From Mycobacterium sp. UM_CSW (GTDB taxonomy: Bacteria; Actinomycetota; Actinomycetes; Mycobacteriales; Mycobacteriaceae): DNA of 32,957 nucleotides. Shown here piece by piece: positions 1-28,986 of the stretch (the first letter of the stretch is position 1; the number at the start of each line of letters is the position of its first letter). Where the stretch lies: contig NZ_AUWQ01000068.1 of the NCBI RefSeq assembly GCF_000455205.1, forward strand, positions 1 to 32,957, read 5' to 3'. Both the position numbers and the translations under genes were made by a program. Below the pieces are notes generated by a model. The model had not been told where the DNA came from and made no database searches. It saw nothing but the letters and a program-made list of their open reading frames with translations.

Positions 1-3000
1 CTCGGCTTGCCGCGTTTTCCAGCCGCGGTGCCCGTCGGCTAAGTTCGTCGAACCTTGCGCGCGCGTCGTCGAGATCCGCCTCGTCGAATACCTCGCAGCG
101 GTTGATCCTGTCGCGCTCGAACGTGAGAAGAACGACGTCTCGCCACTCGGCGTTGAAGCCCTCTTGCGTGGTCCCGTGCACCGCATGTGTGACGACCGCT
201 CCCGAGCCGCTCAGCCGATGTACAGCCTCGAGGTAAATGGATGCTTGCGGCGCGAGCTCCCACACGGCTCGAAGGGATACACCAAGATCACCCGGCTCAA
301 TCGCCACGACCGGTCGATGATCGAGATTGACCCAGTCCGGCGTTATCGGCGGGAGTTCGTGCCGGCCAAGCGCGGCGTAGCTAGCCGTGGTTAGCGACCA
401 TGTCTGCGCGTGGGGGGCTGCTTCGCCGGCGAGGTACCGCGCGTCCAGCTCCGCGAAGGCGGCGTCGAAGTCGTCGGGCTCGAAAATGACGAACGTCGCA
501 ATCTGGTTGTGCGAGTTGACTTCGACGACGCTCAGCACATCCGTGGTGAACTCCGCGGACCCGCCACCACCGACCGAGGCGTGCGCGAGGATGAGGCGCT
601 CTCCGCGGGTTGCAATGACGACAAACGCCGTATACGTGATCCCGACTTCGGCGGCGGCCTGCATGTTTGCGATCTCGGCATCCCGACCTTGCCGGATCCC
701 TGCGTTTACGGTCCGACGGCGATCGTCAGTCACGAAGTCGTCAGCCAGGACCTTCGTAAGCGCATCCCAGTCGCGGGCTGCGAAGTGCGCCGAGTGGCGC
801 TCGGCCGCTCGGCTGGCCGCGTTGTCAAGCCGCCGCGCCTGCGGCCGTAACGCCTCGAAGCGCGCGAGGGCGACATCGAGGTCCGCCTCTTCGTAAACCT
901 CCACCAACGGTCCGTCGGAAACGAACAGAAATGTGCGACCCCACTGCAATTCGTTGCCGTGTGCGTCGGTGCCTTCGATGACGAGGGTGGAGACGAGCCC
1001 GTGGGCCTCGAGCGCATGTACCGTCCTCATCCAATAGCGGGCATCGGGCACCAGTGTCCACAGCTCCTCGATGGCGCGCCCGTAGTTTTCCGCCGACCCG
1101 AACGGGACGCGCCGACGGTCGGCCCACGCAAGTCGCCCAAGCATCGGCCCCGGCTCGTGACGATTGAGCTCCCCCACCGTGTCCATTACGGGATGCAAGA
1201 CGCGTGCGTAGGCTGCCGCTTCGCCGGCGAGGTAGCGCGCGTCGAGCTCTGCGATGGCGGACGTGAAGTCGTCGAGGTCGAACAAGATGATCGCCGAAAT
1301 CTGGTTCTGGGAGTCTATTTCGAGGATGCCTAGTACCTCGTTGACGAACTCGCCTTTGCTGCCGGAGACGCGCGCGAGGATGAGGCGCTGCCCACGGGCC
1401 GCGATGACGGCGGACGTGAAGTAGGTGATCCCGACGTCGGCGGCCGCCCGCAAATTTGTGACCTCGGCATCCCGACCGTGCTTGGTCCCCGCGTTTACGA
1501 CGCGCCGACGATCGTCGACACAGATGTCGTCGGCCAGCACTTTCGCGAGCGCATCCCAGTCGCGCGCTGCGAAGTGCGCCTTGTAGCGTTCGGCAGCTTG
1601 GCTCGCCGCGTTTTCCAGCGGCGGTGCCGGTCGGCTGAGCTGGTCGAACCGCGCGAGCGCGGCGTCAATGTCCGCCACGTCGAATAGTTCGCAACGGCTA
1701 AGGAGATCGCCGTCGAACATGAAAATCGCGATGTCCCGCCACTCGGCCTCGAATCCCTCTTGCGAGGTGCCCTGCGCTCTGAAGGTGACAACCACTCCAA
1801 GATCGCTCACGCGATGCACAGCCTCGATGTAGCCATTGAGGTCGGGTGCGTATTCAAATGTGTCGTGGAGGAATACGGTCATATCGCCGGGCGCGAACGC
1901 TGCTCCGCGCCGGTGGTCGATGTTGGCAGAGTCCGGCGCCAGCGCGGGTAGTTCGTGTCTGTTGATCGCCGCGAAGCACTGACCAACGAGCAACCACGCA
2001 TTCGGGTGTGCCGCCGCTTCGCCGGCGAGGTAGCGGGTATCGAGCTCGGCGACGGCGGCGTCGAAGTCGTCAGGGTCCAACACGACGATTGTCGCGATCT
2101 GGTTGTCGGAGTTGACTTCGGCGACGCCCAGCGCGTCGCTCTGGAACTCCTCGGACCCGTTATCACGGCCCGACGCACGGGTGAGGACGAGGCGCTGACC
2201 ACGTGTTGCGATGGTGACGAACGTCAAGCGCGTAAATCCGGCCTCAGCGGCCGACCGCAGGTTTGCGATCTCGGCATCGCGACCATGTCGAATCCCAGCG
2301 TTTACGGCCCGCCGGCGATCGTCGATAACGATGTCGTCGGCCACGACCTTCGCGAGCTCATCCCAGTCGCGGGCTGCGAAGTGCGCCGAGTAGCGCTGGA
2401 CAGCGTGGCACGCAGCGTTTTCCAGCCCCGGCGCCGAGCGGCTGAGTTGCTCGAACGTTGCGGTCGCGGCGTCAATGTCGGCCTCTTCAAATAGCTCCCA
2501 ACGGCTGATTAAGTCGCCCTCGACCGTGAGAACGTAGACCCCTCGCCACTCGGCTTCGAAGCCTTCTTGCGAGGTCCCATACCCCACATAGGTCGTAACC
2601 GCTCCGAGGTCGTTCAGCCGGTGCACAGTCTCGATATACATGCCGCCCGTGCCGCCGTCCCACGACTCACGGACGTATGCAATCGCATCATTGGGTGCGA
2701 CGGCTGTTGCCCGGCGGTGGTCGATATTCATCCAGTCGCGCGTCGTCGCTGGGAATTCGTACCGGTTGATCGAGGCGACGATACGCGTGATGGCAGACCA
2801 TGTGCGCGAATGCGCGTCCGCTTCGCCTGCGATGTAACGGGTTTCGAGCTCGGCGATCGCGGCTTCAAGGTCGTCGGGGTCGAACGCGACGATCGCCGAG
2901 ATCTGGTTGTCGGCGTTGATCTCGACGACGTGCAGTAGATCGACGCGGAACGCGTCGGGTTTCTCGTCGCTGCGCGAGAACCGGACACGGGTGAGGACGA

Positions 3001-3232
3001 GGCGGTCTCCACGGGTGGCAATTGCGTCTGACGCTGTTTCCGTGACCTGCTGGTCGGATGCCAACCGGAACTGTGTGATCATGGCATCCCGGCCGTGCAG
3101 GGCCCCAACGCCTACCACACGACGACGATCGTCGGTGTAAAGGTCGTCGGCCATTATCTTCGCGATCGCATCCCAGTCACGGGCCGCGAAGTGCGCTAGG
3201 TAGCGCTCGACCGCTCGGCTTGCCGCATTTTC
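1..3232 (-). repeat. Tandem in-frame repeat array, four full units of about 0.8 kb plus the start of a fifth
   Basis: Each unit begins with an (E/D)NAA(S/C) motif followed by AHFAARDWD. Unit starts on the minus strand are at 3232, 2422, 1615, 826 and 19, giving unit lengths of 270, 269, 263 and 269 residues. Every unit has two halves. The first runs from AHFAARDWD to a segment ending ARYLAGEA. The second holds NRHE, IDHRR, EAVHRL and GTSQEGFEAEWRD. Both look like SnoaL/NTF2-like folds (inference from motifs). DNA similarity is visible as well, for example the segments near 763, 1551, 2359 and 3169 that all read as close variants of catcccagtcgcgggctgcg. The second half of unit 3 (about 830-1200) is clearly diverged and lacks the TSQEGFEAEWRD box. 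Confidence 0.9.
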
Positions 3233-6200
3233 CAGCCGCCGCGCCTGACGGTTTGTCTCTTCCTCGAATCGGGCTTGCGCGGCGTCGAGTTCGGCGATCG
3301 CGGCATCCATGTCTTCTAGGTCGAAGAAGATTTGCAGGCAGATTCGACCCTGTTCATCGATGCCGTATATCTGGAGAAATTCATCCTGCGGCGCCCCGGG
3401 GCTCGTATCAATAGTGCCCACCACCAATCGAGCGAGAGCGAGTCGCTCGCCTCGCACGGCTATGTCGTGCGCGGTGAGGCGCACCCCGCTCGCCCCTAGG
3501 ATTCGCCCAATCTCATGGGCCCAGTTTTCCGGTGAGACAATCGCTCCCGCGGCATGTGTAAACCCGATGACCTTGCGGTGACTCTCGCTGAACACCTCGG
3601 GCGCATAGAGTTCCTTGAACTCATCCCAGGCCTCGCGATTGATCGCAGCTCCCAGGCGTTTGCCGGCCCGTATACATGCATTGTCGAGCTCGACAACCGG
3701 CGGCGGTTCGGGTGGCGCAGGGACACTCCGGGCAGGGCGTTGTCCGACTACACGCCGCGCTTTCTCCGCAAGTGCCGCAGCGCCTTTCCGCTCATACAGA
3801 TCTACGGCCCGCTCGGCGGCGGCGCGTGCACCCGCAGCATCACCTCCAGCGTCTAAAACCGTTGCCAGTGAGGCACATGCGTCGCCGTGATCAACCAGCG
3901 CGTCGGTGCGCTCGGCCAGGGCGACAGCGGCCTCGGCGATTCGTCGAGCCTCACCGTGTTCACCGCTGCGCGAAAGCAGGAGCGCCCGCAGAGTCCGCCA
4001 ATGGATAGACGGTTTCAAAGCGTGGCCGGCGAGTCGCTCACTCTCCAAACACAATTCGTCAGCCTCGCCGTGTCGGTCGAGCGTTAGACACGCGCGGCCC
4101 AGAAACGCGGCTGTCTCCGCAGTATCGGCGTCCAGGCCCATGCGACGAAAACCGTTGTACGCCTGACGCAAATGCGGTTCGGCCGCGGCCGGATCGTCGG
4201 CGATCAGCTCAACGATGCCGGCGAACTGCTCGACCTCAAGCAACGCGTGCCGCAGCCCGAGTTCGGTGACTGTACGCCGCGCCGAGTCGATCATCCGCCG
4301 GGCCGCCTCGGCGCGTCCCCGGAAGGCCTCCAACACGGCTTGGCACCGCGTCGACGTCGCCTCGACCGCGGGCGACTCGGTTGTGATTCGCAAGAGCCGC
4401 ACCACGTCGAGGCACCGCCCACCCGCACGCGGAACCGGGTTGGGACCCCACAGCGCGGCAAGTGGTGCGCCCGCCAGCACCGCGTTGACCCGCCGGTGGT
4501 CACGCGCACGCCGTGCCGCCGTGAGGGCGTCATCCAGCGCGATCTCGCCGTCGCCGATCCTGCCTAGGCGGGCCAGGCACGCAGCCCGAACGGTATGAGC
4601 GTTGGCTTCGCCTGCGGCATCGCCTAACTCGGCCAGTTTCTGGGCGGCCACACCTAAAGCGGTTTCAACCTCGTCGAGTCGCTCGGGATGGATCAGCATC
4701 GACAGCTGGCCGTCGAAACACGTCGCCCACGCCGCCAGCCGCACCGAATTGACCGTCGCTTCTTGCAATTTGGAGACTGCGCCCGCCGCGGAAGCTACGT
4801 CGCCAGCGGCCAATAGAGCCTCGCAACGCGCGACTAGCAGTTCGGCCGCCTGGTCGTCGCGGTCTGGCAACTCGTCGTCGATCTCGTCCAGCGCGTGCAA
4901 CGCTTGGCCGTATAGATCGGCGGCGCCTTCGTAGCCGAGGCGCGCCACCGCCTGGTCTCCCGCACGTCGGCAGTATTCGACCGCCTTGGCCGCGTTTCCC
5001 GCCCACGCACATTCGAAGTAATGGTGGGCCAGTTCGGCCAGCAGCTCATCGTTGGCACCGGGCTGGGACTCGAGCGTCGTGGCGATGCGCTGGTGCAGCC
5101 GCATCCGCCGCACCGACGGCAGTTCGGCGAGCAGCGACTGACGGACAAGGGCATGGTTGAATCGGTAACGGCCGCCGGGCTCTTCGATGACGATGCCGGC
5201 CTTACACGCCCCGTCGAACGCGTTGACGAGATCATCCTCAACCACGCGCTCAACCAGTTCTACCGAGAACCTGCTACCGACCACCGCGGCCGCGGCAAGG
5301 GCATCGTTCGTCTCTGCTGGAAGCCGAGAAAGGCGGCGGCTCACGGTTTCCCGTACACCTTGTGGCAGGGTAGTCGGATCCCACACACCGCCGGTCTCAT
5401 CCAGATGGCGCAGCGCTTCAATAAGGAAGAACGGGTTGCCTCCGGTGACCGACGCCAACGCCCGGGCAAGTTCTTCGTCGTCGTAGCCGGCCTCGGTGAC
5501 GTACGCGGTCACGTCGGCTTCGTCGAGGCCGCTGAGCGTAAGGCGGTTGAAAGTGCCAGAACCAGAGCCGCGGTGCAGGTCTGCGAGCATCGCCGCCAGG
5601 GGATGCGAACGGTCAAGGTCGGTGCTGCGGTACGTGCCGACGATCTGCACCCGCGCGCGATCGCCGAACCGCAACAGATGCCGCAACAACAGCAGCGTGG
5701 GCTTGGCCGCCCAGTGCAGGTCATCGAGGATCAGCACGACGGGTGCGCCGGCGGAGGCGACTTCCAACAGTGCGACGACGGCGTCGAACAGTGCGTAGCG
5801 CTCGGTTTCCGGATCGGCGCGGGTTGGCGCGGCGAGATCGGGCAGGACGTCGGTCAGCCCGGGAACCAGAGGAAGCAATGCTTCAACGCCGCGCATTGCG
5901 CGGAGCCGGGTGGTGCCGAGGCAGGGCATGAGCGAACGCAGTGCCTCCGCGAAAGGCTGGTAGGGCGCACCGAGATCTTCATCGCAGCGGCCGTAGAGCA
6001 CGATCGCTTCTAACTGGTAGGCCTGCTGCGACCACTCGCCGGCCAAACGTGTCTTGCCCACGCCTGGTTCACCGGCAATCAGCACCGCGTGCGTGCCGCC
6101 CGCCAGCGCGATTTGCCAGGCGGACACCAGCCCTGCGAGCTCAGGGCCGCGTCCGACGAACGGTCCGGGGCCGGTCAGCACCGCGGGGAGGGCCGGGCGC

Positions 6201-7534
6201 TCGATCGGTGCGTCGTTTGCCTTTTGCGGCGGTGCGGCGGTCTCCAACCGAAGCTCGAAAACATGCTCCGGACGCGCCAGGTTCTTGAGCTGACGCATCC
6301 CCAAATCGACGAGCACAACATCGTCGGGCAGTGAGTCGATGACCAGTTCGGCTATCGCACCAGAGCACAGGATCTGGCCGCCTATTGCCAGCGACCGCAG
6401 CCGTGCGGCGCGGTTGACCGCGCGACCGAAGTAGTCGCCGTCGCGCAGCTCGACCTCACCGGTATGCAGTGCAACGCGGATACGCATCGGGTCTTGCAGG
6501 CGCCACGGTTCGTGGAAGATTGCGTCCTGCAATTCGATTGCGGCGTTGGCCGCCGCCGAGGCCCTTTCGAAGACGGAAAAGGTGGCGTCCCCCTCGCCGC
6601 GCGTCTTGATCAGCCGTCCGCCGCGGGACGTGACAACCTGTTCGACAAGCTCATCGTGGCGCGCGAGTGCCACCGCCATGGCGTCGGCGTCGGCCTCCCA
6701 GGCGGCAGTCGATCCTTCGATGTCGGTCAGCAGGAACGTGACTGTGCGCGTTACAGTCGGAAGATCTTGTGCGGCAGGAATTTCTAGCGCAGTGTCCTGT
6801 CCGACGATCGCTGCCTCGAGCCGGCGAAGATCAGGCCCGGGGTCGACCCCCAGTTCATCGGCGAGTAGCGCACGCGCTCGTTGGTAAGCGGCCAGCGCCT
6901 CGCCCTGCCTACCGGCGCGGTAGAGTGCGAGCATCAGCTGGCCCCATCGTCGTTCGCGCAGCGGCGCCTCGGCCACCGCGGCCTCCAGCTCCCCGACGAT
7001 CTCCGCGGCGCGGCCCGTTGCAAGTAGGGCGTCTGCCCGGTCCTCGACCAGTGCGGCGTGGCCCTCGATCCAGCGTGTCTTTTCGGATGTTCCCCGCCGG
7101 GTATCGGGCAGTTCGGGGGTGCCGCGCCAGAGGGTCAGCGCCTCCTCGAAGCTCGCCACCGCTTGGCTGGTAGCGCCAGCGGCGGCCGCATCACGGCCCA
7201 GTCGAGCGGCCGATTTGTACCGCGAGGCATCAACCTCGCTCTCGGCGAGGGTCCAACCCGTCCCCATCGTCAACACAAAGCCGTCGCCCAAGGCGCGGCG
7301 CAGCGCGGAGATGTGAGTCTGCAGGGCTTTGGCGGCGGTGCGTGGCGGATCGTCGCCCCAGAGCAACTCGAGCAGCGTTTCGGCCGACATGACCGAACCG
7401 CTGTGCAGGCCGAGCATCGTCAGGATGGCGCGAGGTTTGGCGCCCGGGATCATGACGGGCGCTCCGTTTTGCCGGACCTGGAGAGGTCCCAAAACCCCCA
7501 GTTCCACCCATGGAAGCGTACTCACATTGCCCAT
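1..7534 (-). CDS. Giant SARP / class III cyclase / STAND ATPase / NTF2-like array regulator (partial)
   Basis: At least 2,511 residues; the C-terminus lies beyond the left edge. No stop occurs in this frame. The ATG at 7534 is preceded by an in-frame TGA, which fixes the start region. Domains in order: OmpR-type winged helix (about 10-95); bacterial transcriptional activator domain (about 100-245); class III cyclase (about 262-420) with metal aspartates D271 and D316, D367, and transition-state N374 and R378; STAND/AAA ATPase with Walker A GEPGVGKT (488-495) and Walker B LDD (D604, D605), then GNPFF near 700; helical TPR-like repeats (about 820-1280); one divergent NTF2-like module (about 1285-1430); then tandem units starting at 1435, 1705, 1974, 2237 and 2506. 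Inferred role: a cytoplasmic regulator coupling ligand sensing and ATP hydrolysis to cyclic nucleotide synthesis and DNA binding. Domain identities come from motifs; ligand and target genes are unknown. Confidence 0.93.
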   Translation of the reverse strand, partial: MGNVSTLPWVELGVLGPLQVRQNGAPVMIPGAKPRAILTMLGLHSGSVMSAETLLELLWGDDPPRTAAKALQTHISALRRALGDGFVLTMGTGWTLAESEVDASRYKSAARLGRDAAAAGATSQAVASFEEALTLWRGTPELPDTRRGTSEKTRWIEGHAALVEDRADALLATGRAAEIVGELEAAVAEAPLRERRWGQLMLALYRAGRQGEALAAYQRARALLADELGVDPGPDLRRLEAAIVGQDTALEIPAAQDLPTVTRTVTFLLTDIEGSTAAWEADADAMAVALARHDELVEQVVTSRGGRLIKTRGEGDATFSVFERASAAANAAIELQDAIFHEPWRLQDPMRIRVALHTGEVELRDGDYFGRAVNRAARLRSLAIGGQILCSGAIAELVIDSLPDDVVLVDLGMRQLKNLARPEHVFELRLETAAPPQKANDAPIERPALPAVLTGPGPFVGRGPELAGLVSAWQIALAGGTHAVLIAGEPGVGKTRLAGEWSQQAYQLEAIVLYGRCDEDLGAPYQPFAEALRSLMPCLGTTRLRAMRGVEALLPLVPGLTDVLPDLAAPTRADPETERYALFDAVVALLEVASAGAPVVLILDDLHWAAKPTLLLLRHLLRFGDRARVQIVGTYRSTDLDRSHPLAAMLADLHRGSGSGTFNRLTLSGLDEADVTAYVTEAGYDDEELARALASVTGGNPFFLIEALRHLDETGGVWDPTTLPQGVRETVSRRLSRLPAETNDALAAAAVVGSRFSVELVERVVEDDLVNAFDGACKAGIVIEEPGGRYRFNHALVRQSLLAELPSVRRMRLHQRIATTLESQPGANDELLAELAHHYFECAWAGNAAKAVEYCRRAGDQAVARLGYEGAADLYGQALHALDEIDDELPDRDDQAAELLVARCEALLAAGDVASAAGAVSKLQEATVNSVRLAAWATCFDGQLSMLIHPERLDEVETALGVAAQKLAELGDAAGEANAHTVRAACLARLGRIGDGEIALDDALTAARRARDHRRVNAVLAGAPLAALWGPNPVPRAGGRCLDVVRLLRITTESPAVEATSTRCQAVLEAFRGRAEAARRMIDSARRTVTELGLRHALLEVEQFAGIVELIADDPAAAEPHLRQAYNGFRRMGLDADTAETAAFLGRACLTLDRHGEADELCLESERLAGHALKPSIHWRTLRALLLSRSGEHGEARRIAEAAVALAERTDALVDHGDACASLATVLDAGGDAAGARAAAERAVDLYERKGAAALAEKARRVVGQRPARSVPAPPEPPPVVELDNACIRAGKRLGAAINREAWDEFKELYAPEVFSESHRKVIGFTHAAGAIVSPENWAHEIGRILGASGVRLTAHDIAVRGERLALARLVVGTIDTSPGAPQDEFLQIYGIDEQGRICLQIFFDLEDMDAAIAELDAAQARFEEETNRQARRLENAASRAVERYLAHFAARDWDAIAKIMADDLYTDDRRRVVGVGALHGRDAMITQFRLASDQQVTETASDAIATRGDRLVLTRVRFSRSDEKPDAFRVDLLHVVEINADNQISAIVAFDPDDLEAAIAELETRYIAGEADAHSRTWSAITRIVASINRYEFPATTRDWMNIDHRRATAVAPNDAIAYVRESWDGGTGGMYIETVHRLNDLGAVTTYVGYGTSQEGFEAEWRGVYVLTVEGDLISRWELFEEADIDAATATFEQLSRSAPGLENAACHAVQRYSAHFAARDWDELAKVVADDIVIDDRRRAVNAGIRHGRDAEIANLRSAAEAGFTRLTFVTIATRGQRLVLTRASGRDNGSEEFQSDALGVAEVNSDNQIATIVVLDPDDFDAAVAELDTRYLAGEAAAHPNAWLLVGQCFAAINRHELPALAPDSANIDHRRGAAFAPGDMTVFLHDTFEYAPDLNGYIEAVHRVSDLGVVVTFRAQGTSQEGFEAEWRDIAIFMFDGDLLSRCELFDVADIDAALARFDQLSRPAPPLENAASQAAERYKAHFAARDWDALAKVLADDICVDDRRRVVNAGTKHGRDAEVTNLRAAADVGITYFTSAVIAARGQRLILARVSGSKGEFVNEVLGILEIDSQNQISAIILFDLDDFTSAIAELDARYLAGEAAAYARVLHPVMDTVGELNRHEPGPMLGRLAWADRRRVPFGSAENYGRAIEELWTLVPDARYWMRTVHALEAHGLVSTLVIEGTDAHGNELQWGRTFLFVSDGPLVEVYEEADLDVALARFEALRPQARRLDNAASRAAERHSAHFAARDWDALTKVLADDFVTDDRRRTVNAGIRQGRDAEIANMQAAAEVGITYTAFVVIATRGERLILAHASVGGGGSAEFTTDVLSVVEVNSHNQIATFVIFEPDDFDAAFAELDARYLAGEAAPHAQTWSLTTASYAALGRHELPPITPDWVNLDHRPVVAIEPGDLGVSLRAVWELAPQASIYLEAVHRLSGSGAVVTHAVHGTTQEGFNAEWRDVVLLTFERDRINRCEVFDEADLDDARARFDELSRRAPRLENAASR

Positions 7535-7627
7535 CGTCGGTGGGGCGATTCAATACCTGGTCAAGATCGAGTAAAGGCGCCGCGCGCCGCCAGCTAGCTA
7601 ACTTCAGTAAAGGGGGTCCGGAGCGGC

Positions 7628-11409: not shown

Positions 11410-12555
11410 TCAGAACACCCGGGTCTGACCCTCGAGGACCGGCACGGTCTCCGGGAGGTGGTAGGTCGCGATCCCGTTCTTGTACATCACCGCGTCCCGG
11501 GCCGCCTTCGGAAGGTGCTTGACCAACCAGCGCGGGTCGTCGAACGTCCAGTGCGGGTAGTCGGAGGAGAACAGCAGGATCTTGTCGCACTCCATCCACT
11601 CCAGTGCGCGGGTCAACTCGGTCTTGTCTTCCGGGTAGTCCAGCGGCTGGGTGGTGAACTTGATGTGTTCCTTGACGTAATCCGATGGCTTGCGCTTGAT
11701 CTCGACCCGCGACTTGCGGGCTTCGTAGAGCGCGTCCATCCGCCACATCAGCGGCAGGATCCAGGAGAACGCGTGCTCGACGAACACGATTCGCAGCGTG
11801 GGGAATCGGTCGAAGACGCCGTCGAAGATCAGGCTCATCACCTGGTTGGCGGCCAGCAGCGAGTAGGTCACCATGAAATCGTGGTTGTAGCTGGGCAAAC
11901 CCACCGGAGGCGTCGGCAGCATCTCGTAGTTGCTGCGCGACAGATGGCAGCTCACCGTGATGTCGTGCTTGGTGGCGGCCTCCCAGATGGGGTTGTACTT
12001 CGGGTGACCCCATGAGGGCCGCGGCTCGGCCTTGATCAGGATCTGCGCCATGTACGGATGGCCGGCCCACGTCTCGATCTCGCGCGCCGCCCCCTCCGGA
12101 TCCTCGATCGCCGCGCAGATCGAACCGCGCCAGCGCTCATGCCAGTTGTTGTGGCTGTCGAGCCAGTGGTTCGCCTGCCAGTGGTTGAGCGCGGTCGAGA
12201 ACGCCTGGTGCGCCTCGGCCAGCCGCGGTGTGCGGCCGCCGGGTTCCAGGATCGCGATGTCGGAGCCCGCTTGCATGATCAGTTGCCGGAAAGCCATGTC
12301 CGGGTCGCTGCAGGCGAACTCGCCGTCCGGCGGGAAGGCGTCGGCGCGCATCGCGAAGGTGTGCGCGTAGTCGGGGGCGTCGTAGTAGATCAGCTCGCCG
12401 ACCTTGTGGTCCAGGAAGAACTTGCTGCGCCACGGCTCGGGGATGTACTGGGTGAGCTCGCCGCGCCGGGGCACCGGGTGGATGTCGGAGTCGACGCACC
12501 GGACGGCTATGCGCTCGGCGGCGGGGACCCGTTCGTGTATGTGAGTCAGCGTCAT
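11410..12555 (-). CDS. Amidohydrolase family protein (metal-dependent, ACMSD-like superfamily)
   Basis: 381 residues; ATG with a clear GAGGAG site upstream. It fits the Amidohydrolase_2 TIM-barrel family, which includes decarboxylases and hydrolases of ring-cleavage acids. Likely metal or active-site residues are D24 and H26 in DSDIH (the first histidine of the usual HxH is aspartate), H204 in SCHLS, E260-H261 in VEHAFSW and D332 in SSDYPHW. The late aspartate and both later histidines are kept, so it is probably active. It lies directly downstream of a paralogue (gap of 37 bases) and upstream of the Rieske gene. Substrate unknown; a decarboxylase or hydrolase role on a cyclic or aromatic acid is inference. 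Confidence 0.9.
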   Translation of the reverse strand: MTLTHIHERVPAAERIAVRCVDSDIHPVPRRGELTQYIPEPWRSKFFLDHKVGELIYYDAPDYAHTFAMRADAFPPDGEFACSDPDMAFRQLIMQAGSDIAILEPGGRTPRLAEAHQAFSTALNHWQANHWLDSHNNWHERWRGSICAAIEDPEGAAREIETWAGHPYMAQILIKAEPRPSWGHPKYNPIWEAATKHDITVSCHLSRSNYEMLPTPPVGLPSYNHDFMVTYSLLAANQVMSLIFDGVFDRFPTLRIVFVEHAFSWILPLMWRMDALYEARKSRVEIKRKPSDYVKEHIKFTTQPLDYPEDKTELTRALEWMECDKILLFSSDYPHWTFDDPRWLVKHLPKAARDAVMYKNGIATYHLPETVPVLEGQTRVF

Positions 12556-12592
12556 CTCTGTCTCCTCAGTCTCCCTTGTCCTTATTCTGCGA

Positions 12593-13684
12593 CTAGCCCG
12601 CTGCCAGGTCGACCGAAATGTCGATCCCGTACAAGTTGGCCGCGTTGCGCCAGCACAGTTTGTCGCGCTGTTCGGCGGACAGCGACGCCGGCACCCGGCC
12701 GACGTCGTTGCTCTGCCAGTGCGGATAGCTGGAGCCGAACATCACCATGTCTTCCTTGCCGGTGAAGGCGAACCACTCGCCGGCGAAGTCGGCGTCGGGC
12801 GGGCCGTCGAGGCTGCCCTGCACGAAATACACGTGGCCGGGGATGTAGTCGCTGGGGATGCGCGGTGCCCAGGGCGTCTGTTCCAGGTGGGGCCGGCCGA
12901 ACGTGTCCATCCGCCAGATGAACGGGGTAAGGAAGTCGGCGGCGCCGTCGGCCCAGACGAACTTCAGGTTCGAGAAGCGCTCGAACACACCCTCGGCGAT
13001 CATGTTCATCAGGTGATACAGGTAGTTCAGCGCCATGAAGCTGACGTACTGCTCGTAGGTCAGGGTGTGCCCGGACGGCGTCGGGGGGAAGCCGATGCCC
13101 TCCCCCGTTTCGACGTGCACGGCGACCGGAAGCCCCGCGTCGGCGGCGGCCTCCCAGAGCGGCCAGAACTGGGGCTTGCCGTACAGCTCGCGGGATTGCA
13201 GCGGGACGCCGAGCTGGACGATGCGGGGGTGGGCACGCCATTTCTCGATTTCGCGCAGGGCGCCTGCGATGTCGTCGGGGTTGACGCGGATGGTGCCGCG
13301 GAAACGCTCGCCGAATTCGGCGGAGTCCAGCCAGCGCGACACCATCATCTCGTTGTGGGCGGCGTGTAGCGCGGTGCCAAGGTGACGGTCGGGCATGATG
13401 CCGCGTCCCATCGGATGCAGGATCGCCATGTCCACACCGCGCTTCGAAAACAGTTCGTTGCCAACGAATTCCGGATCTGAGCCGGGATACTGGCGGTCCG
13501 GCCCCTCGGTGTTCGGCGCGTATTCGCCGCCCGGCGCGCCGTACCAATCCATCTCGTAGTCGGGGAAGCCACGGCTCTTGAACGGCTCGCGCAGGAATGA
13601 GCGCAGGTCCTTGTTGGACGAAAAGAAGACGTGCACGCTCGCGTCGATCAGCGGGGTGCGGGTTCCGTCGGCGTGTTCGATCAC
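12593..13684 (-). CDS. Amidohydrolase paralogue with altered metal-site residues
   Basis: 363 residues from the GTG at 13684, which has GAGGGG about ten bases upstream and begins at the conserved strand just before IDASVH. An in-frame ATG at 13768 would add 28 residues but runs through an operator-like palindrome, so I do not favour it. It aligns along its length with the downstream amidohydrolase (for example GVFERFSNLKFVWADG against GVFDRFPTLRIVFVEH). Compared with it, the first motif is D14-A-S-V-H18, H190 is kept, the internal histidine is aspartate (D246), and the aspartate of SSDYPHW is serine (S319 in GSSYPHW). The metal site is therefore degraded or reshaped. It may be a non-catalytic partner of the downstream enzyme, or have a different chemistry. 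Confidence 0.85.
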   Translation of the reverse strand: MIEHADGTRTPLIDASVHVFFSSNKDLRSFLREPFKSRGFPDYEMDWYGAPGGEYAPNTEGPDRQYPGSDPEFVGNELFSKRGVDMAILHPMGRGIMPDRHLGTALHAAHNEMMVSRWLDSAEFGERFRGTIRVNPDDIAGALREIEKWRAHPRIVQLGVPLQSRELYGKPQFWPLWEAAADAGLPVAVHVETGEGIGFPPTPSGHTLTYEQYVSFMALNYLYHLMNMIAEGVFERFSNLKFVWADGAADFLTPFIWRMDTFGRPHLEQTPWAPRIPSDYIPGHVYFVQGSLDGPPDADFAGEWFAFTGKEDMVMFGSSYPHWQSNDVGRVPASLSAEQRDKLCWRNAANLYGIDISVDLAAG

Positions 13685-13741
13685 GTAAACCGCCCCTCGG
13701 CTCGGGAAGCCAAAGTGAGCCCGATCAGGGCATCTGATAGA

Positions 13742-13756
13742 TAAACTAACATTCTC
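13742..13756. promoter_or_regulatory. Degenerate copy of the GAGAAT-N3-ATTCTC operator
   Basis: This site matches the 15-base palindrome (compare 16826-16840) at 11 of 15 positions; the ATTCTC half is intact. It lies about 58 bases upstream of the first amidohydrolase gene, where a repressor would sit. Confidence 0.4.
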
Positions 13757-13860
13757 GGCGGTCGCCAATCAACGGTATTTCGGTAAGCATTTCGATTAAA
13801 CATCGGCCCTGGTAGCCATCGGTATTGCCGTTATCTGGGTAAGTAGCGTTCTTGCTTGAG

Positions 13861-13875
13861 GATAATAGCATTCTC
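13861..13875. promoter_or_regulatory. Near-perfect copy of the GAGAAT-N3-ATTCTC operator
   Basis: GATAATAGCATTCTC differs at one base from the reverse complement of the site at 16826-16840. On the minus strand it contains TATTAT, a plausible -10 box for the amidohydrolase operon; on the plus strand it precedes the membrane protein gene. It probably serves the divergent promoter region between the two. Confidence 0.55.
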
Positions 13876-13930
13876 GCTCTTGTCGGGTGAATGCCGACCG
13901 GTGCCCGCTGGGCGCCGAAGCGGGCCTGCA

Positions 13931-14605
13931 GTGGACGGTACGATCCGTCGCGTGGTGAGGGCCGTGCACGCGTCCATGGTGCGCTGGATCGGCCTCCTGT
14001 TCGTGATCGGCGCAGCCCTGTTCGCGTTCGGCGTTCTGCTCTCGCTCCTTCCAGCGTCGCCACCGCTGCTCTCGGCGTTGACCTACGCGGTGGGGGCGGT
14101 GTTCTTCACCGCTGCCGCAACGCTTCAGCTGATCCTCGCTCGCCGGGAGCTGCCCGAGGCCGAGCAGCACTCGCTGCCGCTGCGGGCGCGCACCACCGAC
14201 TGGCTGGCGGCGGCCATTCAGTTGGTGGGCACGGTGCTGTTCAACGTCAACACGGTGGACGCCGCGGTGACGATCGGTGCCCGCCCGGAGCTCATCGACG
14301 TCGACGTGTGGGTGCCCGACATCGTCGGCTCCGTCGCGTTCCTGGTCTCGTCGGCGATCGCGATCGTTCCCGAGGTCCGGGCCCGGCGACACTCCCACGT
14401 TGCCAGCGCCTCGCAGCGCATCGCGTTCCTCAACTTCGCGGGATCTGTGCTGTTTCTCGCCTCGGCCGTCGGCGCGCTGGTGTTGCGCTCGGGGGCGGAC
14501 GTCAGCCTGGTGTGGGCCAACATCGGCACGTTCTTCGGCGCGCTGTGCTTCCTCGTGGCGGCCTGGCTTTTCGGCTGGCCTCCGCGCCAGCCACACCAGA
14601 GTTGA
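13931..14605 (+). CDS. Multi-pass membrane protein, possibly YrhK-like
   Basis: About 224 residues. The start is uncertain: GTG at 13931, GTG at 13952 and ATG at 13976 are all in frame and none has a strong ribosome site. Six hydrophobic segments are visible, roughly residues 18-40, 44-69, 85-105, 121-144, 157-182 and 187-214, separated by short loops, with an Arg-rich cytoplasmic loop after segment 2 (ARRELPEAEQ) and another after segment 4 (RARRHSH). The pattern of paired helices and the LFNVNTVDA segment recall YrhK-domain membrane proteins, but I hold that loosely. No catalytic motif is seen. It stands alone between a divergent amidohydrolase operon and a convergent dehydrogenase gene. 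Confidence 0.75.
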   Translation: MDGTIRRVVRAVHASMVRWIGLLFVIGAALFAFGVLLSLLPASPPLLSALTYAVGAVFFTAAATLQLILARRELPEAEQHSLPLRARTTDWLAAAIQLVGTVLFNVNTVDAAVTIGARPELIDVDVWVPDIVGSVAFLVSSAIAIVPEVRARRHSHVASASQRIAFLNFAGSVLFLASAVGALVLRSGADVSLVWANIGTFFGALCFLVAAWLFGWPPRQPHQS

Positions 14606-14625
14606 ATCCGCCCAACGGGATTCAA
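14602..14625. terminator. Hairpin terminator between convergent genes
   Basis: TTGAATCC and GGATTCAA form a perfect 8-bp stem around an 8-base loop. It overlaps the stop codon of the membrane protein gene and lies before the end of the convergent dehydrogenase gene. There is no T-run, as is usual in mycobacteria. Confidence 0.55.
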
Positions 14626-14750
14626 GCGCTAGCCGGGCCTTCGGGCGTCGCGTGTGAACTGCGGGCCTGGCCTGTGAATCGTGGCAGGAAAAATCGGCGA
14701 AATCCCTCCGCTGGTGCACAATCAAAGCCGTTACTGCACACTCAACGCGA

Positions 14751-15653
14751 TTAGCCCGGAAGCGGCTTCACCGGACCCACAGTGACACCGGCGGCCCTCT
14801 CGAACGGCTTGATCACCGTCGTGAAATCGGAGTCCGGGCCCTCCTCGAGCGCGGCCGCCTCCCAGAGCCGGGCCACCGTTTCGGCGACGTCGGTCGGGGC
14901 GCCGAGCGCTTTCGCTTCGTCGAGATACAGCCGCACGTCCTTGACCATCAGCCCGGTGGCGAAGCCGTAGTCGAAGGTGCGCGGCAGGATCGCGCGGGGG
15001 AACTTGTCGCGGCTCGCGCTCGTCGCACCCGAACCCGCGTTGAGCACTTCGATCATCACACCCGGGTCGAGACCGGCCTTCACGCCCATCGCGACCACCT
15101 CCGCCGTCGCGACCAACACGTTGGCCGCCAGGATGTTGTTGGCGAGCTTCATCGTCTGCGCCGCGCCGGGTTTCTCCCCGATGTAAAGCGGTCGCCCGAT
15201 CGCCTCGAGAACGGTTCGTATCACGTCGAATTCGTCGCGCGGCCCGGACACCATGACGGCGAGCGAACCCTTCTCGGCTCCGCCCACGCCGCCGCTGACC
15301 GGGCTGTCGATCGCCACGATGTTCCGTTTCGCCAGCTCGTCGCGGATGTGCACCGCCGTTCGGCTCCCGACGGTTGAGAAGTCGACATAGCGCTTGACGC
15401 GCGAACCCTCGATCACGCCCGCGGTGCCGGTGGCCACCTCCATGGATGCGGCCGGCGTCGGCAGGCTGGCCATGACCGTCTCGACCCGATCGGCGACGTC
15501 TTTCGAGGACGACGCGCCGTGCGCGCCGACGGTGACGAGGCGATCCAGCGCCGCGCCGTTCGTGTCGAAGGCGACGACGTCGTGGCCTTGTTGGATGAGG
15601 CGACGCGCCATGGGAAACCCCATATTTCCCAGCCCGATGAACCCGACCTCCAT
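14751..15653 (-). CDS. NAD(P)-dependent beta-hydroxyacid dehydrogenase (3-hydroxyisobutyrate dehydrogenase family)
   Basis: 300 residues, normal family length. The N-terminal Rossmann motif GFIGLGNMG (4-12) binds NAD(P). The substrate loop DSPVSGGVGGAEKG (116-129) and the catalytic lysine K169 in QTMKLANN, with N173 one turn later, are the hallmarks of the family. The all-helical C-terminal domain follows. It oxidises (or reduces) a short beta-hydroxyacid in the cytoplasm; 3-hydroxyisobutyrate, tartronate semialdehyde and related compounds are all possible. It is the second gene after the carboxymuconolactone decarboxylase-like gene, nine bases downstream of it, so the two are co-transcribed. 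Confidence 0.92.
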   Translation of the reverse strand: MEVGFIGLGNMGFPMARRLIQQGHDVVAFDTNGAALDRLVTVGAHGASSSKDVADRVETVMASLPTPAASMEVATGTAGVIEGSRVKRYVDFSTVGSRTAVHIRDELAKRNIVAIDSPVSGGVGGAEKGSLAVMVSGPRDEFDVIRTVLEAIGRPLYIGEKPGAAQTMKLANNILAANVLVATAEVVAMGVKAGLDPGVMIEVLNAGSGATSASRDKFPRAILPRTFDYGFATGLMVKDVRLYLDEAKALGAPTDVAETVARLWEAAALEEGPDSDFTTVIKPFERAAGVTVGPVKPLPG

Positions 15654-19115: not shown

Positions 19116-20534
19116 CTAGCTTTGGTCGCGGCCCACCACCTCGGTGTGGTTGGGGGACGTCGTGCCGGGCAACGGGATGCGGGCCACGTCCGGGGTGCCC
19201 AGCCGACCGGCCAGCCAGGGCAACGCGGTGGCGAAAGCTGCGCTGGCGGTGGGCCAGTCGTGCCTTCCCGGCTGGGCGACCACCGCGCAGTCGATGCCAT
19301 TCGCCCGGCCGAGGCCGCACAGGGCTCCCGCTGCGGCGGCCTGGTTACCCGGGTCAGTGGCGGCGCCGCGACCGGCGACTGCCATCGCGGTGCTGTCCAC
19401 GACGGTGAGGTCGCGATGCGGCGCCGGGGCACCGCCCGACGTGATCGCGAACCAACCGGACACTCCGGTGTAGCGGCCGTGGCGGCTGATCACCGTCGTC
19501 GGGTCGAATGCCGCCCACGCGTCGGCATTTCCGCCGAACAGGCCGGCGATGGTTTGCGCCTTGCTGCCAGTGTTGGGGGTCAAGTCGCCTTCGATGTCGA
19601 CGAAGGTGCTGAACAGTGTGGGGTGCATGACGGTCAGGTCCACCGCGCAGGTCCCGCCCATCGAGAAGCCCACGATGCCCCAGCGCGACGGGTCGGGGCT
19701 GACCCCGAAATTCGAGACCATGTAGGGCACAACGTCTTTGGTGAGGTGGTCGGCCGCGTTGCCGCGGCTTCCGTTGACGCACTCGGTGTCGTTGTCGAAT
19801 GCCCCGCCCGGGTCGACGAACACCAGCACCGGTGCGTTGCCTCCATGCGCGGCAGCGAAGGCGTCGATGGTGTCCACCGCGTTCCCGGCGCGCACCCAGT
19901 CGGCGGGTGTGTTGATCATGCCGCCGATCATCATCACCGTCGGCAGCTGCGGCGGCGGAGAGCTCGAGAACCATGCGGGCGGCAGGTACACAAGTTCCTC
20001 GCGGTGCTTGAAATGCGATGCGTCGGAAGGGATCTGCACCGGCACCAGGCGGCCGCGGGATGGCCTGGCGCCGCTCGCCGCCATCGCGGTGACGGTGGCC
20101 TTGTCGGTCTGGCCGGGTAGCGGAGCGGAGGTGAGCTGGTCCCACGCGCTCTGCACCGTCTGCACGTACCCGAACCACTGGTTAAGCACTAGCAGCGAGC
20201 AGAGCACACACAGCGGCAGGCTCAGGATCGATACGGCCCGGCGCCACCAGCGCGCGCCGCGCCAGCCGAGGATCACGACGGCCGCGGCGGTTCCGGCCAA
20301 TGCGATCCACACGTACAGCGCGGACGGCGCCTGCTCGGTTGCCACACGGCCGATGTGCCAGTGCGCCCCGGCGGCAGCCACGCCGCCCGCGACGACGGCC
20401 ACGGGCAGCCAGCACAGGAGCCAACGGCGTGATCGCCACGCGATGGCGAGCCCCAGCGCGAGCGCGGTGGCGGCATCGACCGTCAACGGCAGCCAGCCGT
20501 GCATCAACGAGATGTGGTTACTCAGGAGCTGCAT
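19116..20534 (-). CDS. Membrane-anchored esterase (alpha/beta hydrolase, esterase D/antigen 85-like family)
   Basis: 472 residues; the ATG at 20534 has a GGAGGAGG site. The N-terminal third holds about four membrane helices (roughly 13-33, 40-57, 73-92 and 99-118), after which the rest should face outside. The catalytic domain starts near 160. The nucleophile elbow is GFSMGG with S291, and H425 in QPGRHDW is a good catalytic histidine. The fold and VFVDPGGAFDND/DIEGDLTPN segments fit the putative esterase family that includes antigen 85 mycolyltransferases and secreted carboxylesterases; those with N-terminal membrane helices are common in mycobacteria and poorly defined. Likely role: hydrolysis or transfer of cell-envelope acyl esters (inference). 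It is a single gene, with a long hairpin upstream. Confidence 0.9.
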   Translation of the reverse strand: MQLLSNHISLMHGWLPLTVDAATALALGLAIAWRSRRWLLCWLPVAVVAGGVAAAGAHWHIGRVATEQAPSALYVWIALAGTAAAVVILGWRGARWWRRAVSILSLPLCVLCSLLVLNQWFGYVQTVQSAWDQLTSAPLPGQTDKATVTAMAASGARPSRGRLVPVQIPSDASHFKHREELVYLPPAWFSSSPPPQLPTVMMIGGMINTPADWVRAGNAVDTIDAFAAAHGGNAPVLVFVDPGGAFDNDTECVNGSRGNAADHLTKDVVPYMVSNFGVSPDPSRWGIVGFSMGGTCAVDLTVMHPTLFSTFVDIEGDLTPNTGSKAQTIAGLFGGNADAWAAFDPTTVISRHGRYTGVSGWFAITSGGAPAPHRDLTVVDSTAMAVAGRGAATDPGNQAAAAGALCGLGRANGIDCAVVAQPGRHDWPTASAAFATALPWLAGRLGTPDVARIPLPGTTSPNHTEVVGRDQS

Positions 20535-20638
20535 CGTGATTCCTCCTCCCGGCGGCCAGCGATCGGCGCGTGTGAGAGAAGGATTAGATGTCGGCCTCTA
20601 CGAAGCCTCTACGGATTCTTGGAGCCCCGGCCCAGGCC

Positions 20639-20698
20639 GCGAGCAGACACAAAAGCCCCTCACCACGCGGCGTGTCGGGGGCTTTTGTGTCTGCTCGC
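20639..20698. terminator. Long 21-bp-stem hairpin downstream of the P450 gene
   Basis: Positions 20639-20659 and 20678-20698 are perfect reverse complements (21 bp), with an 18-base loop that can itself pair CACG with CGTG. It follows the end of the P450 gene by 22 bases and precedes the esterase gene on the same strand, so it probably ends the SDR-ferredoxin-P450 transcript. There is no T-run beyond the stem. Its perfect symmetry also suggests a mobile or dispersed intergenic repeat. Confidence 0.65.
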
Positions 20699-20720
20699 GT
20701 GGGAACGGGGTCAGGCCCAC

Positions 20721-22097
20721 CTAGTCGATGACGGCGGCTTCCTTGCGCTCGGTGATCGGCCTGGCCAGCTCCTGCTCGTCGCAGATGCGTTGCAGCTTGT
20801 CCAGCGTCTCGTCCAGGCCGGCGCCGACCCTGCGGCCGGGCGTGAAGGTGGCCGGCAGCTTCCGCATCCCCTGGATGACGCCGATGGTCTCGTAGTGGAC
20901 GGTCCCCTCGGGGTAGCACGTGTAGTCGGGCATCCGGTCCAGGACCGCGGTCAGCATGGACTTGAACACCGTGCGCGCCACGTTCGATCCGGCGCAGCGG
21001 TGAACGCCGAGCCCAAAGCTGAAGTGCCGGTTGCCTTTGCGGTCGAGGATGATGTCGTCCGGGTCGTGGAACACCGCGGGGTCGCGGTTGGCCATGGCCC
21101 ACGAAATCCACAGCCGCTCGCCCTCTTTGAAGGTGGTGCCGTCGAGTTCGACGTCATCGGAGAAGGTCCTGCCGTCGCCAGGAGCGGGGGTGAAGTAGCG
21201 CAGGAACTCTTCGGTCGCGGGATCGAGCAGCGTCTCACGCTGCTTGCTGAGCAGCTCGCGCTGATCGGGATGCTGCGAAAGCCATTCCAGCGAATGGGCC
21301 GTCAGCGCCGTGGTGGTGTCGAAGCCGCCGCCGATAATCAACCCGAGATTTCCGATGATTTCCAGGTCGGGCGCGGGCTCGCCGTCGATCCGCATTTCGA
21401 GCAGGGCATTGACCAGGCCGGGCCGCGCATTTTCGCGGATCTCGATCATGTTGTTGATCAGGTCGATCCCCATCTGCCGGTGCATCTCGGTGACCCGTTG
21501 GATGTCCGGGGAATGCTCCGGGGTGTACACCGCGGCGTGCGTCGGCTCGCTGTACATCTGCCAGTTCTTCAGCGGGATGCCCATCATCGCAAGCGTGAGC
21601 ACGGCCGGCACGATGTTGGCCAGGTCGTCGACGAAGTCGATGCGGCCTTCCTCGATCTTCTCGTCGAGGCAGGCGCGCGTCACGTCGTCGATGAACGGCT
21701 CCCAGCGCTTGACCGCGGCCGGCGACAGGTAGGGGTTGAGCACGGCGCGGTAGGTTTTGTGCTCGGGGTTGTCCATCTCCAGGATGCCGCCCCGGATGCC
21801 GTTGATGCGGCTGGCGGTCGGGATCGAAATGCCTTTGTAGCCACGGCGTTCGTTGTTCACATCGTGGTCATTTGACACCGCCGGGCAGCGGGCGAGCTCG
21901 AAGACCTCGTGGCTGCCGGCCGCCACCCAATGTCCGCCGTAGGTGTCGCTCCAGGCCATCGGGCACCGGGCGTGCATCTCCTCGGTGATGTCTTTGAACC
22001 GCGACCGGTACTCCGGGGAGTGCCGATCGAAGTGATACCGGTTCCGCTTACGGTCGCTGTCGCTGACCTGGTCATCAACGCTGTCGTCGACGCTCAA
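20721..22097 (-). CDS. Cytochrome P450
   Basis: 458 residues from a TTG at 22097 with a GGGAGA site about ten bases upstream; no better start is in frame. The I-helix is GGGFDTT (256-262), with D260 where most P450s have acid-alcohol pairs; the ExxR motif is E297-R300; the heme loop FSFGLGVHRCAG places the heme-ligating C368. Soluble, no membrane anchor, class I bacterial type. The C-terminus has an extra tail of about 25 charged residues after the last expected strand. It is the last gene of an operon with two SDRs and a ferredoxin and would use that ferredoxin (14 bases upstream) as electron donor to hydroxylate a lipophilic substrate. The CYP family number cannot be given from sequence alone. 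Confidence 0.95.
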   Translation of the reverse strand: MSVDDSVDDQVSDSDRKRNRYHFDRHSPEYRSRFKDITEEMHARCPMAWSDTYGGHWVAAGSHEVFELARCPAVSNDHDVNNERRGYKGISIPTASRINGIRGGILEMDNPEHKTYRAVLNPYLSPAAVKRWEPFIDDVTRACLDEKIEEGRIDFVDDLANIVPAVLTLAMMGIPLKNWQMYSEPTHAAVYTPEHSPDIQRVTEMHRQMGIDLINNMIEIRENARPGLVNALLEMRIDGEPAPDLEIIGNLGLIIGGGFDTTTALTAHSLEWLSQHPDQRELLSKQRETLLDPATEEFLRYFTPAPGDGRTFSDDVELDGTTFKEGERLWISWAMANRDPAVFHDPDDIILDRKGNRHFSFGLGVHRCAGSNVARTVFKSMLTAVLDRMPDYTCYPEGTVHYETIGVIQGMRKLPATFTPGRRVGAGLDETLDKLQRICDEQELARPITERKEAAVID

Positions 22098-26917: not shown

Positions 26918-27043
26918 GTGCTACAGGGACCGGAGCTGTGAGAAATGTGTGAGCCGAACGCCGCTTTTCATCCGATGAGCTGTCCGATAACGGTTTTGAA
27001 TTTTCCATTCCACCTGGACACCGCATGAGTCATAATCGCCGGA

Positions 27044-27077
27044 CGCTTCAAGACACGAGGGCCCTCGTTTTGAAGCG
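27044..27077. promoter_or_regulatory. Inverted repeat upstream of the mce operon
   Basis: CGCTTCAA (27044-27051) pairs with TTGAAGCG (27070-27077), and the inner ACGAGGG pairs with CCCTCGT with no loop, the two stems separated by a small asymmetric bulge. A plausible -10 box, CATAAT, lies at 27031-27036, so the repeat would fall at or just after the transcription start. The lack of a loop favours a DNA operator over a terminator. The rest of the 363-base gap (26918-27280) holds a candidate small reading frame and nothing else I recognise. Confidence 0.5.
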
Positions 27078-27107
27078 CCAACTCACGCGACAGAACGGAG
27101 GAGTGGC

Positions 27108-27275
27108 GTGAGGATGGTAGTGGCAGCGACGCCGGAGGCGAATGCCGGAATGTGGCTGCCCGCTACGCATTTCGACTGTTCCAGCAGGCTTTTGTGGCCG
27201 TCGGTCCAGCCAAATCTACAGCTTTCCGTTCAGCCGAACAAGACCATCGGTCTCGAAAATGCCGGAAGGAACTGA
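27108..27275 (+). CDS. Candidate small protein or leader peptide before the mce operon
   Basis: An open frame of 55 codons (GTG at 27108, or ATG at 27114) ending with TGA five bases before the first permease gene. A strong GGAGGAG site sits four bases before the GTG and ten before the ATG. The product begins MVVAATPEANAGMW (from the ATG) and has no membrane segment or known motif. About 69 percent of its codons end in G or C, lower than the neighbouring genes, so coding is not certain. If translated, it would be coupled to the permease gene. It may be a leader peptide, a small operon protein, or chance. Confidence 0.35.
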   Translation: MRMVVAATPEANAGMWLPATHFDCSSRLLWPSVQPNLQLSVQPNKTIGLENAGRN

Positions 27276-27280
27276 GGCCG

Positions 27281-28099: not shown

Positions 28100-28118
28100 G
28101 GAGGTGTAGGGGCAAACC

Positions 28119-28967: not shown

Positions 28968-28986
28968 GGAAGGTGGTGAAAGGACA

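Follow-up and report, generated by a model that had tools for sequence, protein, structure and literature searches.

The window and its giant gene

We analyse here a stretch of 32,957 nucleotides, called the window, from the left end of contig C68 (NZ_AUWQ01000068.1; G000:C68:1-32957) in the 6.39 Mb genome of Mycobacterium sp. UM_CSW. At its left edge lies one minus-strand open reading frame of 2511 codons (2..7534), which is stop-free up to the contig edge, where the gene leaves the contig. The frame joins a SARP DNA-binding head, a class III nucleotide cyclase, a STAND ATPase, a TPR-like region, and the beginning of a long array of NTF2-like domains. We describe the family to which this gene belongs, whose members are giant proteins, probably cytosolic sensor-regulators, and we ask what the sequences can tell us about how such proteins are built and how they may be switched.

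All parts of the gene lie on the minus strand. The SARP head consists of a Trans_reg_C winged helix, its DNA-binding part (7283..7438, residues 33-84; Pfam 35.3 bits, cut-off 26.2), and a BTAD domain as second part (6806..7234, residues 101-243; Pfam 129.9 bits, above the curated cut-off). The class III nucleotide cyclase domain follows (6347..6748; Guanylate_cyc, residues 263-396; Pfam 34.3 bits, cut-off 21.9), and then an AAA_16 or STAND NTPase with Walker A and B motifs (5645..6163, residues 458-630; Pfam 92.4 bits, above the curated cut-off). The TPR-like region (3665..4837) reaches only 19.9 bits with TPR_12, below the curated cut-off of 30.1; phmmer also matches this stretch in those frames that were listed as having SARP, cyclase, and STAND parts. 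SnoaL_2 matches the protein in three stretches, at 74.6 bits against a cut-off of 27, so that the domain search did not place the repeats in an unrelated fold. The five-part architecture that a preliminary description had proposed for this mycobacterial protein is thus borne out, with Pfam scores above the cut-offs for four of the parts.

The array starts with a single N-type NTF2-like domain (3236..3694, approximately residues 1281-1433), which matches the first half of our unit profile at window 3281-3688 with an E-value of 8.8e-20. By alignment and profile it is followed by two-domain units 1 (2426..3235), 2 (1619..2425), and 3 (830..1618, with a divergent second domain), then by unit 4 (23..829), the one that we modelled, and finally by the first 7 residues of unit 5 (2..22, motif LENAASR), where the gene exits the contig. 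The array in the window is therefore one single domain plus four complete two-domain units of 263-270 residues each, nine NTF2-like domains altogether, and the earlier count of at least four and a half units was about right. The single long frame stood up as well. It is neither chance nor a sequencing fusion with a missed stop, since the same order of parts is found in closed frames of many other genomes, including a complete paralogue in the home genome.

The probable start codon is the GTG at 7523..7525 (G in 46 of 49 aligned genes, T in 49/49, G in 49/49). The ATG at 7534 is probably not the true start, because the GTG nine bases downstream is conserved in the 49 aligned genes, and because 7534 overlaps a -10-like hexamer that we discuss below.

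The family and its distribution

With a profile built from 20 units we searched three samples: 148 genomes from the genus, 249 from the order, and 296 from the phylum. The array profile matches 65 of the 148 Mycobacterium genomes at an E-value of 1e-30 or better, two of which (G063 and G105) each rest on one match. In the order, 16 genomes have matches at 1e-15, all of them from the same genus, Mycobacterium; in the phylum, four genomes match, three Mycobacterium and one distant. Among the best 80 of 223 matches (69 loci), a selection in which the absence of a species carries no meaning, all relatives of the window protein are from Mycobacteriaceae, except for one metagenome-assembled genome titled Actinomycetota.

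The loci taken contain 49 closed frames with SARP, cyclase, STAND, and units. In 45 of the 49 the last full unit ends fewer than 60 residues before the stop, and these 45 frames have 1951-5484 codons and 2-15 units. The two-unit frames (L045 and L067) are first pieces of frame-split genes, and the remaining frames go from 2134 codons and 3 units up. The largest frames found, with units counted from the matches listed, have 7523 codons with 22 full units (in the record of L028), and 6817 codons with 25 full units, the latter open at the contig start (in the record of L024). The preliminary description had called the array unusual. We found no account of this architecture among the titles and abstract openings listed from an open-licence library, which leaves subscription journals out. 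The window gene is not a single oddity: its family is present in 65 of 148 genomes and includes far longer members.

Not every copy reads as one intact frame. The reading frame changes inside the array in L044, L045, L048, L067, and L075, by decay, by assembly error at the repeats, or otherwise, and the M. lepraemurium copy is in fragments. At L076 (1678-18920), two headed array genes stand in tandem with frames that overlap by ~30 bases, and the second runs off the stretch.

Outside the genus we find SARP-cyclase heads with 39-51% identity over most of the query. Four such stretches were taken, and three of them carry SARP-cyclase proteins, in frames of 1201-1298 codons; a STAND query has no match in these three frames, and none of the four stretches has a unit match. 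A second family has a zinc ribbon in place of the SARP, followed by the same cyclase, AAA_16, TPR_12 match, and SnoaL_2 array (L103 1526-8884, L104 1724-9220, L102 3551-9184). These proteins are 1877-2498 codons long, with strongly diverged units, and their hosts are two Mycobacterium genomes (one of them, G011, also with a SARP-headed gene) and one genome of the phylum outside the class. Given the array-less SARP-cyclase proteins outside the genus and these zinc-ribbon cyclase-STAND-SnoaL proteins, it looks as if mycobacteria elaborated the long array from parts that are older. The fourth of the stretches taken outside the genus, from a genome of the phylum outside the class, has a cyclase frame of 3330 codons in which three STAND matches follow one another (L158 5048-15037).

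The other end of the gene

The home genome has only two heads and three array segments that we could find; the next-best head matches are 31-47% identical. One head is that of the window, and the other belongs to the complete paralogue, on contig C28, which has 5105 codons stop to stop, with two single domains and 13 units. The third array segment is on contig C17, which opens within an array; the frame there has 2600 codons and covers nine full units plus a partial one.

Do C68 and C17 hold the two ends of one gene? We found no exact overlap between the ends of the two contigs. In three other genomes, at L027, L030, and L035, one array gene lies between homologues of the upstream flank of the window (a part of it; 75-88% identity) and of the downstream flank of C17 (90-91%). 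From this synteny we judge that the missing end of the window gene most likely lies on C17; the whole gene would in that case have ~14 units. Upstream of the window gene, the first gene-sized frame has its cluster partners in just these three loci. A tree of the heads (54 of 56, leaving out those below 1200 residues) does not group the window head with L027, L030, and L035, and 23 of its 51 inner branches have support below 80. This misfit with simple vertical descent suggests either exchange between the heads of paralogues or a tree that lacks resolution.

A conserved head

The 55 other heads are 78-86% identical to the window head. Residues Asp271, Lys310, Glu314, Asp316, Asn374, and Arg378 of the cyclase are retained in 54-56 of the 56 heads, and the Walker Lys and Thr and the Walker B Asp pair are found in 56/56. 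This near-invariance of catalytic and Walker residues argues that both the cyclase and the ATPase are used. The roles that we assign to Asp271 (first metal), Lys310, Asn374, and Arg378 are presumed ones; the nearest cyclase relatives in the PDB are 3mr7, Ma1120, and lipJ/1ybt. As for the earlier claim that the main catalytic residues are present, it stands for the first-metal Asp, the Lys, the Asn, and the Arg, and is less certain for the second-metal Asp, which would be in the motif KTRGEGD. Compared with the best PDB relatives, 3mr7 and Ma1120, that motif has two extra residues, and the second-metal place could be taken by Glu314 or by Asp316.

A triple-repeat promoter

We aligned ~280 bases before 49 array genes, leaving out L039, L044, and L059, which have no start motif, and genes with fewer than 280 bases upstream. 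The aligned regions show little conservation, and then abruptly the pattern CTTTACT-N4-CTTGACC-N4-nTTGAAT, a -10-like GACGAT, and the conserved GTG. In the window, the triple 11-bp direct repeat CTTTACT-N4-CTTGACC-N4-ATTGAAT, a putative SARP site, is at 7548..7576 on the minus strand, and it matches the consensus perfectly. The inferred -10-like hexamer GACGAT is at 7533..7538, minus strand (second A in 49/49, fifth A in 49/49, last T in 48/49), and the gap between the last heptamer and this hexamer is 9. On average the three heptamers carry 1.80 bits of information, the two spacers 0.90, and the 20 preceding bases 0.32. Shuffling the window 100 times gives 0 matches to the consensus. As a comparison, SARP sites are described in a section of one review as heptameric repeats with spacers of 4 nt or longer, sometimes with three repeats (PMC10972967), and the AfsR structure paper, in the part that concerns its promoter, gives 11-bp repeats with the 3′ copy 8 bp from the -10 (PMC10936776).

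Allowing up to 3 mismatches, the home genome has two sites, both perfect and both only before array genes, and a backward control finds none. No second transcriptional target appears there at that threshold. Over the genus, a site with at most 2 mismatches is present in 61 of 65 array genomes versus 4 of 83 others. The array genomes without such a site are G021, G063, G086, and G105, of which G021 has a 4-mismatch site at the gene start. Since a site is inherited along with its gene, this association between site and array gives no independent support for a function. The stronger points are the contrast between heptamers and spacers, and the lack of further sites in the home genome. It seems that the protein of each gene switches that same gene, and if so, the protein would be an unusual multi-input sensor in bacteria.

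What of the four sites in genomes without an array match? One (G064) precedes a head cut by the contig edge. The others are in G062, G054, and G080, and in the stretches taken tblastn finds no relatives of the window protein behind them at an E-value of 1e-5. No array gene follows these sites (L137 14013, L140 1038, and L139 1293, with 0, 2, and 2 mismatches). A Peptidase_S51 gene comes directly after the site in L137 and L140 (genomes G062 and G054); elsewhere an S51 gene trails the array gene. We read the array-less sites as probable promoter scars of deleted genes, although the S51 gene may by now have taken over the site in G062 and G054. One array gene is preceded by a doubled site, with two triple repeats that overlap and lie 25 bp apart (L142 12527-12580).

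The array as an ordered set of modules

The units of the three home arrays have a mean identity of ~50%, and from 30 to 68% by pair. For comparisons over the family, we used only units that match the profile almost end to end, and we dropped L086, which duplicates L024. Among the 575 full units (75 frames), 558 find their best match in another frame and 17 in their own array, against 8.3 expected at random. With units only ~50% identical within an array and best matches in other frames, recent tandem duplication is ruled out as the general origin of the arrays, even though a few close unit pairs inside one array exist, with up to 80% identity. For the 138 gene pairs with at least 3 reciprocal matches, the order of units is kept in 854 of 952 comparisons, whereas 100 shuffles of unit order give a mean of 0.50 and a maximum of 0.55. 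These comparisons show the arrays to be ordered sets of distinct modules, the number and identity of which vary by gene and by species.

How do the modules change? For five gene pairs from the top of the order list, the heads are 93-97% identical, and their ratio of nonsynonymous to synonymous substitutions per site (dN/dS) is 0.057-0.113. For the units of the same five pairs, dN/dS is 0.155-0.533 in 38/38 unit pairs. In the L058/L063 pair, the synonymous divergence (dS) goes from 0.04 to 0.89 among units, versus 0.25 in the head. Some modules of that pair may have been swapped, or lost and regained, independently, although a mix of non-orthologous units could look alike. Judging from this spread in dS relative to the head and from the dN/dS of the units, modules turn over separately yet under purifying selection.

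A confident fold for the unit

Unit 4 was modelled with AlphaFold2 using 68 other rows, and the model has a predicted local distance difference test score (pLDDT) of 93.8 and a predicted TM-score (pTM) of 0.90. A Foldseek search with it returns Lsd19 and MonB first, followed by many single-domain ketosteroid isomerases, limonene-epoxide hydrolases, and Rv0760c. The NTF2-like fold of the preliminary description, a cone-shaped alpha+beta fold, is supported by Pfam (SnoaL_2 above cut-off) and by this confident model with its matches to ketosteroid isomerase, limonene-epoxide hydrolase, and Lsd19. By Foldseek E-value the epoxide hydrolases Lsd19 and MonBI-MonBII are the nearest solved structures, and they too have two isomerase-like domains in tandem. 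They differ from the unit in being enzymes, and the whole-length TM-score to Lsd19 is only ~0.4, which suggests that the two domains of the unit are arranged differently.

The residues conserved in the units are D36, R38, R75, E104, D171, R173, H205, E229, and E247. The variable columns within strands alternate (82/84/86, 97/99, 114/116), and they present a mix of small, large, polar, and apolar residues. Such a pattern would fit the walls of a pocket.

A proposed function, and alternatives

We put at about even odds that the protein is a self-regulated STAND receptor, with a modular array of pockets as input and the cyclase, that is a cyclic nucleotide, as output. Each module would offer one or two pockets, and the occupancy of the array, or of particular modules, would be relayed via the TPR-like region to the STAND switch. 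ATP-dependent self-assembly would then bring cyclase domains together, as well as SARP domains, which would meet on the 11-bp repeats. Class III cyclases act as dimers. The SARP head would act on the promoter of its own gene, most likely as a positive feedback that sets the amount of receptor, so that the outward signal would be mainly the cyclic nucleotide and not a broad regulon. The preliminary description had likewise suggested that ligand load could tune cAMP synthesis and transcription; the restriction of home-genome sites with up to 3 mismatches to the two array genes speaks against a wide transcriptional output. A fixed head combined with a rapid turnover of modules could allow the receptor to track a changing set of small hydrophobic ligands.

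A more specific proposal can be made, to which we give noticeably less credence. It joins two claims: that an invariant, self-induced switch, whose SARP acts on its own promoter only, carries exchangeable and ordered ligand modules that genes gain, lose, and swap, up to at least 22 of them (possibly over 25) on one molecule of up to ~7,500 residues; and that the repertoire is combinatorial, each species assembling its own list of sensed compounds and reporting them via the cyclic nucleotide.

Several points weigh against the receptor proposal. Ligand binding, STAND-driven assembly, cyclase activity, and SARP binding with its sign are things that we infer. The second-metal motif is longer than that of solved cyclases. 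Searched by sequence against the PDB, the unit profile has no significant relative (best E-value 0.34), and the pocket reading comes from column patterns, not from coordinates. A model of two units has a pTM of 0.56 with a joint of low confidence, so a path for a signal along the array is not visible in it. On the promoter side, there are the three array-less sites described above, and also 3-mismatch sites in five array-less genomes (G100, G107, G114, G129, and G131; L162-L166). The backward control, which has 0 sites across the 148 genomes, does not explain them. In four of the five stretches taken there are no head or array relatives nearby; G129 has a SARP-like match of 32% to residues 10-315 close by, but on the opposite strand and so placed that the site does not precede it. 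The five sites could have arisen by chance, could be relics, or could be weakly bound by other SARPs. Given them, and a count that stops at 3 mismatches, the SARP may have other targets.

It is conceivable, though we think it doubtful, that the protein is a transcription factor with a wide regulon, for which the triple repeat is the strongest site among many weaker targets. SARPs usually activate other genes, according to the portion of the review that deals with their targets (PMC10972967), and our counts stop at 3 mismatches when one true array promoter has 4; the 3-mismatch sites of the five array-less genomes, absent from the backward control, would fit too. Against such a regulon stand a 6.39 Mb home genome that has no third site at up to 3 mismatches, the way in which closer sites track array genes over 148 genomes, and the lack of a GACGAT hexamer in the 40 bases after each of the five 3-mismatch sites.

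Somewhat less likely still, the array could be a platform for binding proteins, a scaffold or a spacer, with the diversity of units mirroring protein partners instead of small-ligand pockets. NTF2-like domains include non-catalytic versions, as stated in a part of PMC3924330, and a passage in PMC7730460 has the SnoaL_2 tails of ECF sigma factors working via contacts with the sigma core; the low-confidence joint between units would also suit a platform. What speaks for pockets instead is that the most variable columns include many mixed apolar positions within strands and helices, not just charged surface, and that the best structural matches are ligand-binding enzymes.

A constant effector head with a fast-changing receptor part also resembles NLR-like systems, going by sections of PMC10907252 and PMC7159879, and a STAND-type defence or conflict receptor could use the array to recognise products of phages or competitors. 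We find this improbable: among the known anti-phage systems modelled in PADLOC 2.0.0, none matches the window protein (0 families); a scan of viral contigs gave no relative, which also speaks against a mobile or phage origin; and the Pfam-named neighbours in the window are metabolic and lipid-transport genes, with neighbours recurring only in subsets of loci.

Least likely of all, and by a poor chance, the units would be strung-together isomerases or hydrolases with regulation secondary: the closest folds are indeed ketosteroid isomerase, limonene-epoxide hydrolase, and the two-domain epoxide hydrolases Lsd19/MonB, and a weak match to 3unl (E-value 0.86; profile 6-36 to chain 8-38) puts Asp36, which is D in 98% of 563 units, on isomerase residue 38, but the position of isomerase Tyr14 by that same non-significant pairing is Tyr in only 12% of the units, which speaks against isomerase chemistry as far as so weak an alignment goes, no known catalytic set is recognised among the conserved residues, and the fusion to SARP, cyclase, and STAND points to sensing.

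If the self-regulated receptor is the right reading, bacterial multi-input sensing would include a fixed switch with a modular list of pockets, unlike designs of one ligand and one regulator. To our knowledge, the input is unknown for most mycobacterial nucleotide cyclases; in the present family, the modules are a candidate input device. The genes of this family form a natural series, from 3 modules up to 22, with a defined promoter site, and single units have ~270 residues. The scale of the question can be seen in M. tuberculosis H37Rv, for which a passage in PMC4452763 gives 16 genes with cyclase domains.

Relation to known systems

The nearest families are the AfsR-type SARPs and the Mclx cyclase-ATPase regulators. 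AfsR-type large SARPs have the same N-terminal Trans_reg_C and BTAD, followed by a STAND ATPase and by a TPR region where the window protein has its weak TPR-like one, and in their promoter, too, direct repeats of 11 bp stand near a -10, there a weak one (promoter section of PMC10936776). The window family differs by a class III cyclase between BTAD and ATPase, by the very long NTF2-like array, and by home-genome sites (up to 3 mismatches) only before its own genes. The NCBIfam AfsR model matches residues 11-262 only, with 152.6 bits against a full-length cut-off of 1430.

The Mclx regulators (Rv0386, Rv1358, and Rv2488c) are likewise soluble, with a class III cyclase beside an AAA/NB-ARC ATPase, in the description given in part of PMC4452763. 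They have a C-terminal LuxR, whereas the window family has an N-terminal SARP and the added array. Pfam finds no LuxR family in the window part of the protein (the C-terminus of the complete paralogue was not scanned for families), and the fewer than 60 residues that follow the last unit in 45 of the 49 closed frames leave little room for one. By its sequence, the window protein is thus outside the Mclx definition.

Other likenesses exist. The TOMM kinase/cyclase fusion (TIGR03903) matches cyclase, ATPase, and TPR-like region (residues 328-1112, E-value 5e-39), with 133.9 bits versus a cut-off of 705.75 and with the first part of the model outside the match. The ECF41 and ECF56 sigma factors (SigJ, SigG) have a SnoaL_2 regulatory tail on a transcription factor, as described in one portion of PMC7730460; theirs is one extension on a sigma factor, whereas here an array is carried by a cyclase-ATPase.

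Neighbouring genes

Neighbours recur only in subsets of the loci, which rules out a conserved neighbourhood as a clue to the ligand. Ten loci, the window not among them, share the same upstream gene on the other strand, which we take to be a GAF-type sensor kinase. Of the 65 loci in which 1 kb or more of sequence follows the array, 14 have a Peptidase_S51 gene no more than 14 bases from the array stop; none was found in the window, C17, or C28 stretches. The window itself has, at 24216-31301, genes for an aldehyde dehydrogenase, a coenzyme A (CoA) transferase, an MlaE-type permease, and two Mce proteins, which we read as an mce operon for lipid import next to catabolic genes; the array gene lies on this contig too. 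On the minus strand, 11410-15653 and 19116-22097 encode two amidohydrolases, a 3-hydroxyisobutyrate-dehydrogenase-like gene, an esterase, and a P450.

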